Below, piece by piece: positions 57,002 to 61,420 of a stretch of DNA of 64,000 nucleotides. The first letter of the stretch is position 1. Every line of letters starts with the position of its first letter. Location of the stretch: NCBI GenBank assembly GCA_024178355.1, contig JAMZNZ010000001.1, forward strand, positions 310,001 through 374,000. The letters run 5' to 3'. The DNA comes from Maricaulaceae bacterium EIL42A08 (lineage in GTDB: Bacteria; Pseudomonadota; Alphaproteobacteria; Caulobacterales; Maricaulaceae). The notes under the pieces were generated by a model. It searched no databases. It was given only the letters and a program-made list of their open reading frames with translations, and was not told the origin of the DNA. The translations under genes and the position numbers were made by a program.

Positions 57002-57526
57002 ATGTCCGAAGGCAGTTTTGAGCGCATACGGGTCCTTATCCTTGAGGACAACACGCACATGTCGACTATTCTGCGCACGATCCTGCAGGGTTTTGGCGTG
57101 CGCAACATCGTGGAGACGCGCGACGCGGCGGACGCGTTTGAGACGATGCGCAGTGCCAACCCGGACCTGGCATTGGTGGACTACATGCTCGGCGATGTGG
57201 ACGGGCTGGAATTTACACGCCTCACCCGCACCGCGTCGGACAGCCCGAACAAGTATCTGCCCATTGTGATGGTGTCCGGTCACACCGACCGCTCGCGCAT
57301 CATGGAAGCGATCAATGCCGGCGTGAACGAGTATCTGGCCAAGCCGGTTCGCCCTGTGGACCTGTATAACCGGCTGGTGCCGCTAATCGAGCGCCCACGC
57401 CGTTTTGTGAAGTCGCCGGGCTATTTCGGACCGGACCGCCGCCGCCGCCAGGATCCGCGCTATGCCGGACCTTTCCGCCGCGCCAGCGATCAGGACTTCG
57501 ATACCGCCGACGTGGACTTCGGCTAG
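57002..57526 (+). CDS. CheY-like response regulator with basic tail
   Basis: A 174-residue protein. The receiver domain (about 8-130) has LILEDNTHMSTIL, the phospho-acceptor Asp in ALVDYMLGDVDGLEF, Ser in VMVSGHTD and Lys in YLAKPVRP. The tail carries a GPDRRRRQDPRYAGPFRR motif, an Arg/Pro-rich element recurrent in alphaproteobacterial signalling proteins. There is no DNA-binding domain. It lies 94 bases upstream of the ketosynthase operon on the same strand and could be co-transcribed with it. The ATG at 57002 is chosen over an upstream start at 56936. Confidence 0.88.
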   Translation: MSEGSFERIRVLILEDNTHMSTILRTILQGFGVRNIVETRDAADAFETMRSANPDLALVDYMLGDVDGLEFTRLTRTASDSPNKYLPIVMVSGHTDRSRIMEAINAGVNEYLAKPVRPVDLYNRLVPLIERPRRFVKSPGYFGPDRRRRQDPRYAGPFRRASDQDFDTADVDFG

Positions 57527-57620
57527 CCCCTGCGCCAATCCGCGCCCTAGTCGCCTGCCCTAATTTCGCCTCAACTGTCTTGACGATGACCCTTGGGAAG
57601 GGTGAAGCGGAGGCGATTTA

Positions 57621-58772
57621 TTGCGCCCAATTCAGCCTGTCTATATCTCCGGCACGGGAGCCTTCCTGCCTGGAGAGCCGATTCCCAACGACCAGATGGA
57701 AGCCTATATCGGCCTGGTGCATGGACGCCCGTCCAGCGTCGGTCGACGGGTTCTGCGCTGGAATGGGATTGAGACGCGCCATTACGCGCTTGATCGCGAC
57801 GGACTCCCAAACCACTCCAATGCCGGCCTTGCCGCAGAGGCAGCGCGCCAGGCCGCGGACAATGCGGGCGCGGACCTTTTTGAGCTTGAGCATCTGGCCG
57901 CGGCCACCACACAGGGCGACCTGCTGGTTCCGGGTCATGCCGCGCAGCTACATGCCGAGCTAGGCTGCGGCCCACTGGAAATTGCGAGCTTTCAATCTGT
58001 CTGCGGCTCAGCCCTGATGTCCGCGAAATCCGGGTTTCAGGCGGTGCGCACCGGTGAAGCCCGGCAGGCCTGCGCATCCGCCAGCGAGCTGTCCTCACGC
58101 TGGTTCAGGCCTGAATTCTTTGAAGGCGCAGACCTGACCGGCCGCAAGGGCAATGTCGTGCTAGAGGCCGAGTATCTTCGCTGGACGCTGTCAGATGGCG
58201 GCGGTGCAATCTGGATGACAGACGCCCCAAAGCGCGACGGCATCTCCCTTCGCATCGACTGGATCGATATCGTGTCCCTGGCTCACCAGTTTGATCCTTG
58301 CATGTGGGCCGGAGCGCGCATGTCCGACCGTCACGATCTCCTGAGGTCCTGGTCCTTCCTGGGCCCACAGGCGGCTTTCCAGACAGGGGCCATTGCACTT
58401 CAACAGGATTTCACCCTTTTAAAATCGATTATCCGGGCCTGGGTCGGCGTCTATCTGAAGAAGGTGGATGAGGGTCGCATTGATCCAGCCTCTATCGATC
58501 ACCTGCTGGTGCACTACTCGGCCAAATCGCTGCGCGAAGAAATCATCAGGCTTCTGGAAGACACCGGCGGCATGATTGATGAGGCCCGCTGGTTCAACAA
58601 TCTGCGCACGGTCGGCAATACCGGATCGGCATCGATCTGGATCATGCTCAACGCGCTTTTGAACGAGCGCCCGGTCAAACCCGGCGAGCGCCTGCTGGCG
58701 GTTGTGCCAGAAAGCGGGCGCGGCCTTGTCGGCTTTATGCAAATGACGGCCGTCGGGCCGGATGGAGAATAA
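57621..58772 (+). CDS. StlD/DarB-like beta-ketosynthase (FabH-related)
   Basis: A 383-residue, thiolase-fold ketosynthase. The active-site residues are Cys128 (SFQSVCGSALMS), His298 (LLVHYSAKS) and Asn333 (TVGNTGSASIW), so a working Cys-His-Asn triad is predicted. The N-terminal block NDQMEAYIGLVHGRPS...RWNGIETRHYALDRDG closely matches my memory of StlD/DarB enzymes, which join two beta-ketoacyl chains into cyclohexanediones leading to dialkylresorcinols or stilbenes, rather than FabH. It starts at TTG 57621, supported by GGAGG 7 bases upstream. The next gene follows after two bases. No DarA/DarC homologue is seen. Confidence 0.85.
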   Translation: MRPIQPVYISGTGAFLPGEPIPNDQMEAYIGLVHGRPSSVGRRVLRWNGIETRHYALDRDGLPNHSNAGLAAEAARQAADNAGADLFELEHLAAATTQGDLLVPGHAAQLHAELGCGPLEIASFQSVCGSALMSAKSGFQAVRTGEARQACASASELSSRWFRPEFFEGADLTGRKGNVVLEAEYLRWTLSDGGGAIWMTDAPKRDGISLRIDWIDIVSLAHQFDPCMWAGARMSDRHDLLRSWSFLGPQAAFQTGAIALQQDFTLLKSIIRAWVGVYLKKVDEGRIDPASIDHLLVHYSAKSLREEIIRLLEDTGGMIDEARWFNNLRTVGNTGSASIWIMLNALLNERPVKPGERLLAVVPESGRGLVGFMQMTAVGPDGE

Positions 58773-58774
58773 TC

Positions 58775-59482
58775 ATGGCGAGCATTGAAACCTTGAGCCA
58801 GTCGGCCGATGCCCAATCGCTGCAGGTCCAGTCCGTTCTGCGCAAGCTGGCCATTGCCTGGACCGAGTTCGAAGCGCGGCTGGAAACGACACCCCTCATC
58901 CGCAAACTCAATCGCGGCCAGCTCACAATCGAGGAATATCAGGCCTTCCTTCTCAATCTGCGCCAGCAAGTGGTGGAGGGAGCCTGCTGGATCTCGCGTG
59001 CAGCCTCCAATATTTCAGAAGACTATTTCGAGCTGCGGTCCACCTTGATGCAGCATGCCCAGACCGAGCATCGCGATTATCAAATGTTGGAGGCTGACTT
59101 CGTTGCGGCAGGCGGTGAGCTGCAGGCCATCCGGTCGGCCCGAAAGAATATCGGCTCAGAAGCCTTGTCCGCCTGGATGTATCAGCAGGCCTCAAAACCG
59201 AACCCCTTCTCCATGATTGGGGCCATGTGGATTATCGAGGGGCTCGGATCCCAGAAAGCCCGCGACTGGGGCAAGGCGGCGCTGAAACAGCTCGACCTGC
59301 CAGAGGAGGCCGCACGCTTTCTGCTCTATCACGGTGAAAACGATCTCGAGCATATGGAAGAATTTCAGGAGATGCTCACCCTGATGCCGCTTGATGAGGC
59401 TCTCATTGAGGACATTGTCATGTGCGCGCGGGTCACCGGGCGGCTCTATGCCCTCCAGCTGGAGGAGATCACAAATGCCTGA
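58775..59482 (+). CDS. Heme-oxygenase-fold iron-containing redox enzyme (HDO-like)
   Basis: A 235-residue, all-helical protein of the TenA/PqqC/CADD-like fold. Candidate iron ligands are Glu98/His99 with His94 (MQHAQTEHRDY), Glu155 (MWIIEGLG) and the H-x3-D-x2-H motif His186, Asp190, His193 (LLYHGENDLEH). That last motif is the diagnostic one of heme-oxygenase-like diiron oxidases such as UndA and CADD. The second-helix ligand pattern departs from the usual E-x2-H, so metal binding is not certain. The gene is tightly coupled on both sides, suggesting it modifies the product of the ketosynthase. Confidence 0.78.
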   Translation: MASIETLSQSADAQSLQVQSVLRKLAIAWTEFEARLETTPLIRKLNRGQLTIEEYQAFLLNLRQQVVEGACWISRAASNISEDYFELRSTLMQHAQTEHRDYQMLEADFVAAGGELQAIRSARKNIGSEALSAWMYQQASKPNPFSMIGAMWIIEGLGSQKARDWGKAALKQLDLPEEAARFLLYHGENDLEHMEEFQEMLTLMPLDEALIEDIVMCARVTGRLYALQLEEITNA

Positions 59483-60401
59483 CCAGCTTGGACAAGACTT
59501 CAATCCGGACAGCTTTGACCGAAACGATCCTGATCCCTGGCTTGCCCTGTGGCTGGATACCAGCCTGCCCATCGACGACGACGCGAAGGCGGCACTTCTA
59601 AAAGGCCATGACAGCTATTCGCGCCGCTTCCTGCTGCCCTTCCTTCGCCCCTTTGTCTTTGTGTTTTTCGTGCTGGTTCACGCCCTGAGACGCATCTTCC
59701 TGCGCTGGCCGAACATGCCAAAGACACTTCACAAGACCATCCACTGGGGTTTGCGTACCTTCGCCACACCAGAGGCGAACACCCTGATCCTGCGTCACTT
59801 TTCGATCGGTACGGAAATCCTGGGCTTCATCAAGGCCAATGCCGGCCCGGTCGAAATCGAGAGCTTTCCGCTCAAACCGACAACCCTTAAAGAGCTTGAA
59901 GACAATATTTTCCTCCAGCACGATCTGAACATCTACAACTTCATTATCGAGCTGAATAAGTCGTTGCGCGAACAAGGCCGTGACCTTTCGCCGCCCGACA
60001 CGCTTGATCTGTCCATGATCACAGACGAACAGTTTGAGTTCGAAGACTTCCCGGACACAAAGCTCAATTTCGTCGACATACAGACCGCGATTGAGCTCTA
60101 TACGCCCCTCTACGCCCTCTTCCTGCCGAAAAATGATTTCGTCCGCGCAGCGAACTCGCTCCAGCTCGATGAAACCATCGCCATCTATATCGCGAAAATC
60201 CTCGGCACGGATTATCACCTCAGCTTCATCAAAAACGGTCACCCGATGGTGCCCCTTTCCACATTTGAGGCCGGGCATCGACTGATGCTTCACGGCCTTG
60301 ATGCTGAAGGCATCCATGGCTGGCTTCGCGTTCTGAAGCGTCGTCAGGCGGCGGGCCTGCCGCTCGACCCTGCAAGGCCACCAGGTCAAATTGGCGACTA
60401 G
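59475..60401 (+). CDS. Unrecognised protein of the ketosynthase operon
   Basis: A 308-residue protein that I cannot assign to a named family. Residues 9-40 are acidic (NPDSFDRNDPDPWLALWLD), a strongly hydrophobic helix lies at about 52-73 flanked by Arg, and the rest looks globular and helical with several His (LILRHFSIGTEILG, FLQHDLNIYNFI). It overlaps the HDO-like gene by eight bases, so it is translated together with it. It could be a membrane-associated partner enzyme or carrier for a lipid product. Its stop overlaps the convergent threonine aldolase stop. Confidence 0.75.
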   Translation: MPDQLGQDFNPDSFDRNDPDPWLALWLDTSLPIDDDAKAALLKGHDSYSRRFLLPFLRPFVFVFFVLVHALRRIFLRWPNMPKTLHKTIHWGLRTFATPEANTLILRHFSIGTEILGFIKANAGPVEIESFPLKPTTLKELEDNIFLQHDLNIYNFIIELNKSLREQGRDLSPPDTLDLSMITDEQFEFEDFPDTKLNFVDIQTAIELYTPLYALFLPKNDFVRAANSLQLDETIAIYIAKILGTDYHLSFIKNGHPMVPLSTFEAGHRLMLHGLDAEGIHGWLRVLKRRQAAGLPLDPARPPGQIGD

Positions 60402-61420
60402 CCCTCAGCAGCCTTAACAACGGCATCAATATCGGCCTGGGTCGTGCGCCAGCTGGCCACGAAGCGGGCCGAGCCGTCCGGCCAGGCGTAAAAGCCTGCG
60501 CCGGCGGCCTGCAGCCGGTCTTTGACCGCTTCGGGCAGGCGCAGAAAGACTTCATTGCCCTGAGTGGGGTGGGCAGCCTCAACCCCTTCAATCTGGCAAA
60601 GCCGATCGGACAACTCTTTGCCTGCGGCATTCGCGTGACGGGCAAGCTCCAGCCACAAATTGTCGGCCAGCCAGGCCTCAAACTGGGCCGCCACATAGCG
60701 CATCTTGGGCAGCATGTGCCCGGCACGCTTCTGGCGGGCCTGGAGCTTTGGGAAATGTGCCCGTGCATCACCAAACAGGATCACCGCCTCAGCCGCCAGC
60801 GCTCCGTCCTTCGTCGCGCCCATGCACAAAACATCAACGCCGCGCTTCCAAGTCATATCCGCCGGTGAACAACCCAGATGGCTGAGCGCATTGGCAAAGC
60901 GGGCCCCATCCATATGGACAGAAACCCCAGCGGCCTTCGCCTGTGACATCAGCGCATCCAGCTCCTCGAGCGCATAGGCGCAACCAGACTCGTTGAGTTG
61001 AGAGATCGAGAGTACGCGCGGCGGCGTCGTGTGGACAAAGTCCTGGGGCCATTCATTTAGCGCGTTGGCGAGATTATCAGGATCGATCTTCGCGTGCGCC
61101 CCATGAAGCGGCAGCAGCTTGGCCCCGCCGGTAAAGAATTCCGGAGCACCGCGCTCATCGCGCTGAATATGAGCTTCATCGTGGCACAGAATGATATCAT
61201 CCGGCCCTGACAACACCGAGAGGGCCAGTGCATTGGCCGCCGTTCCAGAGGTGGTGAACAACACCTCCAGCTCGGTCTCGAACAGCTCAGTCAAACGGGA
61301 TCTCACCCGCTGGCTGATCGGGTCCGCGCCATAGCTGGGGGCAAAGCCCTCATTGGCGCGCACCATGGCATCGAACAGGCTGGGGTGTGCGGGGGCGGTG
61401 GTGTCAGACAGGAAATTCAT
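60398..61420 (-). CDS. Low-specificity L-threonine aldolase family protein
   Basis: A 340-residue, PLP fold-type I lyase of the threonine-aldolase/beta-eliminating group. It has MNFLSDTTAPAHPSLFDAM, FTTSGTAANALAL, VHMDGARFANAL and the PLP-lysine region VLCMGATKDGALAAEAV. It cleaves threonine or related beta-hydroxy amino acids to glycine and an aldehyde. It ends with a four-base overlap with the convergent operon. A thioredoxin-like gene lies 16 bases upstream (61437) on the same strand, suggesting co-transcription. Confidence 0.92.
   Translation of the reverse strand: MNFLSDTTAPAHPSLFDAMVRANEGFAPSYGADPISQRVRSRLTELFETELEVLFTTSGTAANALALSVLSGPDDIILCHDEAHIQRDERGAPEFFTGGAKLLPLHGAHAKIDPDNLANALNEWPQDFVHTTPPRVLSISQLNESGCAYALEELDALMSQAKAAGVSVHMDGARFANALSHLGCSPADMTWKRGVDVLCMGATKDGALAAEAVILFGDARAHFPKLQARQKRAGHMLPKMRYVAAQFEAWLADNLWLELARHANAAGKELSDRLCQIEGVEAAHPTQGNEVFLRLPEAVKDRLQAAGAGFYAWPDGSARFVASWRTTQADIDAVVKAAEG

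Follow-up and report, generated by a model that had tools for sequence, protein, structure and literature searches.

A recurrent gene trio of ketosynthase, heme-oxygenase-like oxidase and DUF6999 protein in a Maricaulaceae genome and its possible role in a DarA-independent lipid pathway

Three co-directional genes fill positions 57621-60401 of a 64,000-nucleotide stretch (the window) of the genome of Maricaulaceae bacterium EIL42A08 (contig JAMZNZ010000001.1, positions 310,001 to 374,000). They encode a StlD/DarB-like ketosynthase (KS), a heme-oxygenase-like dimetal oxidase (HDO) and a protein of the Pfam family DUF6999, and are referred to here as the trio. The trio is real, conserved and, as far as the searched open literature shows, unstudied; no paper on the trio was found among the open-access matches listed, DUF6999 is mentioned nowhere in the open library searched, and the phrase 'DarB family' is absent from the smaller set of papers checked for it. 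By sequence comparison it is also old and nearly inseparable. In this paper we describe its gene order and co-inheritance, the fusion of its first two genes, the separate branch formed by its KS, the exchange of partners with DarA and the conserved residues that are putative metal ligands of its HDO. We propose, with about an even chance of being right, that the three proteins make up a lipid pathway of their own, in which DarB-type chemistry proceeds independently of DarA and the HDO oxidises the KS product.

Recurrence and layout of the trio

The initial annotation of the window had described one compact three-gene unit and had suggested asking whether the three genes recur together in other genomes. 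The layout is confirmed, with spacings of +2 bases between KS and HDO and -8 between HDO and DUF6999, and the genes do recur together. Three overlapping genome samples were searched, of which all include the window's genome (G000), while some other genomes occur in two of them. The class sample contained DUF6999 in 6 of its 385 genomes, the order sample in 25 of 299 and the phylum sample in 9 of 398, and KS and HDO genes adjoined it in every case (6/6, 25/25 and 9/9). In a further scan, covering 84,980 species genomes, 458 stretches with DUF6999 relatives were obtained. The best 80 of these, 23 of them from Achromobacter, were inspected; KS and HDO lie upstream on the same strand in 77, and in the remaining three (L030, L034 and L049) the HDO is present and the contig then ends. 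Every sampled DUF6999 gene that is not cut by a contig end has KS and HDO nearby. When the HDO was searched for in 61 genomes (the window's own and relatives), nine matches were obtained, of which the five strong ones (G000, G002, G009, G030 and G056) all lie in trio loci and the four weak ones lie in short loci without KS or DUF6999. Joint recurrence in so many genomes places the grouping far beyond chance.

The scan loci are labelled Pseudomonadota, Cyanobacteriota, Acidobacteriota, Myxococcota and Bacteroidota, labels that come from metagenome bins for all cyanobacterial and acidobacterial loci and for the single Bacteroidota locus; that of Sorangium cellulosum belongs to a complete genome. 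The class sample includes a DUF6999 match in Caulobacter vibrioides. The number of DUF6999 stretches and the constancy of their partners suggest that environmental bacteria, and perhaps this laboratory model too, may commonly make a metabolite or lipid that has yet to be described.

Within the genus, the trio is present in 3 of 15 genomes and occupies the same place in each. It is preceded by a response regulator and followed by a gene on the opposite strand, which is matched in each of the 15 and which we take to encode a threonine-aldolase-like enzyme. The distance from regulator to downstream enzyme is 2,846-3,409 bases in the genomes with the trio (57527-60400 in the window), whereas only 10-657 bases separate the flank matches in nine of the 12 genomes without it. 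Among the other three, the flanks are at least 15 kb apart in two and the regulator match is missing in one. From these filled and empty versions of one site, the trio appears to come and go as one piece, by gain or loss, and it is dispensable to the genus overall.

The spacing between HDO and DUF6999 is -8 to +17 bases in 70 of 79 loci and larger in nine, some of which have room for extra genes. An apparent loss of KS in one genome of the order sample (G462, L104) was rejected when the KS was found upstream, past an inserted AAA ATPase gene; this AAA_21 ATPase gene (L165 3051-4301) lies between KS and HDO, which are close together in the other loci of that sample.

The TTG start of the KS and its ribosome-binding site, both claimed in the initial annotation, are supported by the nearest relative (L016), which keeps GGAGG and TTG with a one-base indel in the spacer between them (Table 1). 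The indel would break any upstream frame shared by the two sequences, which makes a coding sequence ahead of the TTG improbable and favours TTG as the start. The initial annotation adds that this start may tune the dosage of the KS. A scan of 57300-60700 for promoters and terminators found none, the chance expectation being 1.1 and 3.3.

Table 1. Features of the trio locus, in positions of the window
Feature	Position	Strand	Details
GGAGG ribosome-binding site	57609..57613	+	Read from sequence; 7 bases 5' of TTG start
StlD/DarB-like KS	57621..58772	+	TTG start; 383 aa; C128/H298/N333
HDO	58775..59482	+	ATG start; 235 aa; PF14518; H94, E98, D101, E155, H186, D190, H193 invariant
DUF6999 protein	59475..60401	+	ATG start; 308 aa; PF22523; predicted all-helical; no function listed by Pfam

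The ketosynthase branch and its exchange of partners

On the NCBIfam StlD/DarB model NF005293 the window KS scores 342 bits, under the curated cut-off of 450; it scores 293 bits on the DarB model (cut-off 550) and 49 on that for FabH. The remaining trio KSs that were scored reach 302-374 bits on NF005293, also under 450. The closest solved structure is by far that of StlD (5gk0, E 2.4e-70, 240 bits), the next protein reaching 43 bits. The triad of Cys128, His298 and Asn333, intact and placed as the initial annotation had it, is kept in all 92 aligned rows, 79 of which are trio KSs (identical rows were collapsed, and L043, L048 and L086 were excluded because their matched stretch contains a stop). 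Trio KSs and DarB have 34 near-invariant positions in common, many of which differ in two aligned FabH rows.

A tree of 83 KS rows was built, leaving out the window duplicate (L166), 17 near-identical Achromobacter rows, and OleA- and PpyS-like sequences. FabH splits off at 100/100 on a branch of 3.2, DarB forms its own clade (98/88), and the trio KSs together with two Streptomyces KSs form a sister clade to DarB (88/84, under the star threshold). The trio KS, as placed by this alignment, clusters with DarB, far from FabH, on a branch of its own. The comparison with ordinary FabH proposed in the initial annotation thus separates the two, and the 49-bit score rules out a FabH paralogue; the other KS match in the window's genome (G000:C1:552465) does group with FabH. 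The name StlD/DarB-like stands as far as the tree and the nearest solved structure are concerned, but the score does not reach the family cut-off, and genuine DarB membership is ruled out by that score together with the missing DarA. In summary, the trio KS shares with StlD and with the DarB enzymes of flexirubin, arcuflavin and dialkylresorcinol pathways its whole-length similarity, triad, 34 residues and a sister branch, and differs from them in its lower score, in lacking DarA and in being paired with or fused to HDO and DUF6999.

DarA is described as an aromatase and DarB as a cyclase in passages of PMC3949708, and the initial annotation had placed the HDO and the third protein where DarA would be expected. 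When 299 genomes of the phylum were scored on the StlD/DarB model, three separate bands emerged: seven genomes with genuine DarB at 560-601 bits, five with a trio-branch KS, window included, at 302-344 bits, and other matches at 66 bits or less. Each of the seven genuine DarBs is accompanied by a DarA-like protein of about 305 residues, and for none of them is there an HDO or a DUF6999 gene in the surrounding 4 kb or so, whereas all five trio-branch KSs have HDO and DUF6999 and none has a DarA-like stretch in the loci examined. These mutually exclusive partners support the placement. The DarA-like neighbours are named by position and size beside DarB, which presumably mark them as DarA; five of them, scanned against NCBIfam, matched no model. 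No DarA-like match at E <= 1e-5 was present in the 80 best scan loci, and a genome-level search of G000, G009 and G756, which all carry the trio, found none while matching both DarB genomes (one being the query's own). Seven further trio genomes gave no DarA match, and none of them has a KS above the DarB cut-off. Like the DarA/DarB/DarC dialkylresorcinol operon, the trio encodes a DarB-type KS alongside an oxidising partner, but it has the HDO for the flavodoxin-like DarA and DUF6999 for the acyl carrier protein.

The same exclusion of partners would fit a trio that makes an ordinary dialkylresorcinol, with the HDO as a non-homologous aromatase doing the job of DarA. Also in keeping with this is an antiSMASH 'resorcinol' region with a DarB core in Achromobacter mucicolens, reported in passages of PMC9045304, together with the finding that in strain LMG 26685 of this species the trio KS is the only DarB-like KS and DarA has no match. 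We consider this explanation unlikely; it leaves unexplained both DUF6999 and the desaturase and hydroxylase of the betaproteobacterial loci described below, and an HDO normally does more than dehydrogenation. The comparison, made across different strains, suggests instead that the 'resorcinol' label in A. mucicolens is probably misleading, and automatic tools probably file trio loci under this heading despite the missing DarA.

The two Streptomyces KSs of the sister clade (41% identical to the window KS) were rejected as trio members, the next gene being DarA-like and neither HDO nor DUF6999. They lie on the linear plasmids NZ_CP108315 and NZ_CP109562 (L151 5337-18156 and L152), near plasmid primase genes, in a dialkylresorcinol-like cluster that also encodes two acyl carrier proteins, FabF, FabG, a P450, an FAD-dependent enzyme and an SCP2 protein. 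A plasmid of Prevotella nigrescens (L153 7995-9131) carries another DarB-family KS, with no DarA-like gene found within 8-kb flanks.

The oxidase, its fusion to the ketosynthase and the proposed pathway

The window HDO matches PF14518 at 37.8 bits (cut-off 28.9), and its structure predicted from a 29-sequence alignment (pLDDT 94.7) resembles the solved folds of 3dde (TMq 0.81), Chlamydia CADD (CtCADD, 0.80) and UndA (0.73). The Pfam score and the TMq to CtCADD together identify a seven-helix heme-oxygenase fold. In the Pseudoalteromonas HDO (L096) the PF14518 match does not reach E 0.01.

The published HDO ligand motif is E-H-E-H-(D/E)-H, and about 85% of 150 HDO groups conform to it according to passages of PMC11363339. 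The trio HDOs keep five of these six positions and depart from the full motif at the second, which is Asp101. Across all 107 HDO rows, in which the same genome is in part read several times and from which identical rows and L044, whose matched stretch contains a stop, were left out, helix 1 carries E98-x2-D101 instead of E-x2-H, with an invariant His94 as well. The helix-2 Glu (E155) and the helix-3 residues H186-x3-D190-x2-H193 are kept in the same 107 rows, the latter being the H-x3-D-x2-H that the initial annotation had recognised. E98 and D101 were placed by alignment and not by structure; three HDO-like proteins of related genomes have E-x2-H at the same columns, which supports the alignment register. 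The metal site, read from these residues as putative ligands, is a variant of the canonical HDO site. With the HDO enzymes UndA, CADD, SznF, BesC and FlcD (PF14518) the trio HDO shares the fold, the helix-2 Glu and the helix-3 motif, but it differs from them in E-x2-D, in the invariant His94 and in its fusion to or pairing with a KS. Its closest solved fold, 3dde, is the structural-genomics protein Sden_3740 of Shewanella denitrificans, which by profile alignment has E-x2-H on helix 1 where the trio HDO has E-x2-D.

KS and HDO form one open frame of about 610-700 residues in 44 of the 77 loci, 23 of these 44 being from Achromobacter (the fused frame of L052 is cut by its contig), and in L056 Pfam detects the two domains within a single protein. 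Mapped on the KS tree, fusion requires four changes of state, at least three of them forced by well-supported branches; two FabH rows (L168 and L169) carry a wrong 'unfused' label there, with effect only on the count for that label. Repeated fusion or splitting of the same partners is strong evidence that KS and HDO act on one substrate, and the natural fusion offers a direct way to test HDO action on ketosynthase products, together with a possible new iron-site variant. An HDO that works with a dedicated partner from its own operon has been described in MboA (passages of PMC13185094).

The gene neighbourhood points to a lipid product. Among 86 loci scanned for context, 23 of them from Achromobacter, a fatty-acid hydroxylase (PF04116)-like gene was found in 38 and a desaturase (PF00487)-like gene in 36, mostly directly upstream; the loci concerned are betaproteobacterial, with a small number of fused loci from elsewhere. 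Loci of Myxococcaceae and Flammeovirgaceae have hydroxylases too, and four loci encode an MFS-acyltransferase-like protein. In a Woeseia locus (L080 7003-8391) the gene directly 3' of DUF6999 encodes a fusion of fatty-acid hydroxylase and PAP2 phosphatase.

In the pathway that we propose, the KS would couple two fatty acyl chains, most likely as DarB and StlD do, by a Claisen condensation followed by cyclisation, which would yield a dialkyl-cyclohexanedione or its carboxylate. This product would pass directly to the HDO, adjoining or fused to the KS, and be oxidised with O2 at a putative diiron site. The HDO would thereby replace the flavodoxin-like DarA or go further, and the resulting dialkyl compound would be aromatised, hydroxylated or ring-opened. 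DUF6999 would act last to complete the product or would hold it at the membrane. The route supposed in the initial annotation was similar: a dialkyl-cyclohexanedione or related lipid would be oxidised or cleaved to a membrane or pigment-like product.

Several observations weigh against this pathway. The KS score under the StlD/DarB cut-off (342 against 450) means that its chemistry could differ, giving for example a pyrone or a beta-keto acid, and the lack of the canonical helix-1 His means that the diiron site of the HDO could be altered. No hydroxylase or desaturase adjoins the trio in the alphaproteobacterial loci, the window included, or in the loci of Microbulbifer, Saccharospirillum and Acaryochloris, and neither an acyl carrier protein nor an activating enzyme is encoded in the operon of the window. 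The chemical steps, the product and the role of DUF6999 are all inferred from the families to which the proteins belong.

Other KSs yield different products: a beta-keto acid in the case of OleA and an alpha-pyrone in that of PpyS/MxnB. An open-chain or pyrone product of the KS might then be oxidatively decarboxylated by the HDO, much as UndA treats lauric acid, to an alkenyl ketone or a hydrocarbon-like lipid. The sub-cut-off KS score would allow this, as would the nearness of the HDO fold to that of UndA, and passages of PMC13108848 and PMC11363339 describe the coupling of O2 to C-C cleavage by UndA and others. We regard such a route as somewhat unlikely, considering that StlD is so much the nearest solved KS, that DarB-type residues are kept and that the HDO fold resembles 3dde and CtCADD more than UndA. 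Known HDOs act mostly on fatty or amino acids, according to passages of PMC13108848. A protective or redox role instead of biosynthesis would resemble that of the Acinetobacter HDO protein DtpC, which is described in parts of PMC13232832 as acting in stress tolerance and limiting peroxide in dried cells. DtpC, however, is paired with a catalase and not with a KS, whereas the trio KS has an intact triad and is often fused to the HDO; a role of this kind is very improbable.

The DUF6999 protein

The third protein had been called unrecognised in the initial annotation. The name does not hold, as the protein matches DUF6999 (PF22523) at 386 bits against a gathering cut-off of 27, and all 37 aligned relatives match the family; it remains correct that Pfam gives it no function. 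The trio ties this family to KS and HDO, which provides a handle on a Pfam entry without function. The single membrane helix claimed for the protein is not secure: a hydrophobic 19-residue window (Kyte-Doolittle mean >= 1.6) occurs in 27 of the 37 members, and in many of these it has R-P-x-A-R inside.

An AlphaFold2 model from the 37-sequence alignment (pLDDT 92.2, pTM 0.90) consists entirely of helices. Its comparison with folds of the PDB gave no match at E <= 0.001, the best probability among the matches listed being 0.06, and there was no match to viral models (BFVD) or, for the family profile, to PDB chain sequences. The predicted fold thus matches no solved structure, a wording chosen with regard to Foldseek, which was used for the fold search and can miss folds. 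Distant relatives were sought in Pfam and NCBIfam for the 37 members and none was convincing. Residues invariant among the 37 sequences include H86, R107, H108, N122, H149, D150, D201, R224, D232, E233, N254, H273 and E278.

Taken broadly, and tentatively, at somewhat less than an even chance, the trio might represent a widespread class of oxidised two-chain lipids or signals. Their maker would be a KS-HDO oxidative condensase, in many bacteria a single protein, whose metal site departs from the canonical one as E-D-E-H-D-H; DUF6999, as a new-fold enzyme or lipid-binding protein with invariant His, Asp, Glu and Asn residues, would carry out the last step.

A distant member of the family is encoded on the 801-kb plasmid of Pseudoalteromonas sp. 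THAF3 (L096 5997-8615), where the trio is kept with a DUF6999 protein only about 28-30% identical and an uncharacterised 185-residue gene precedes the KS.

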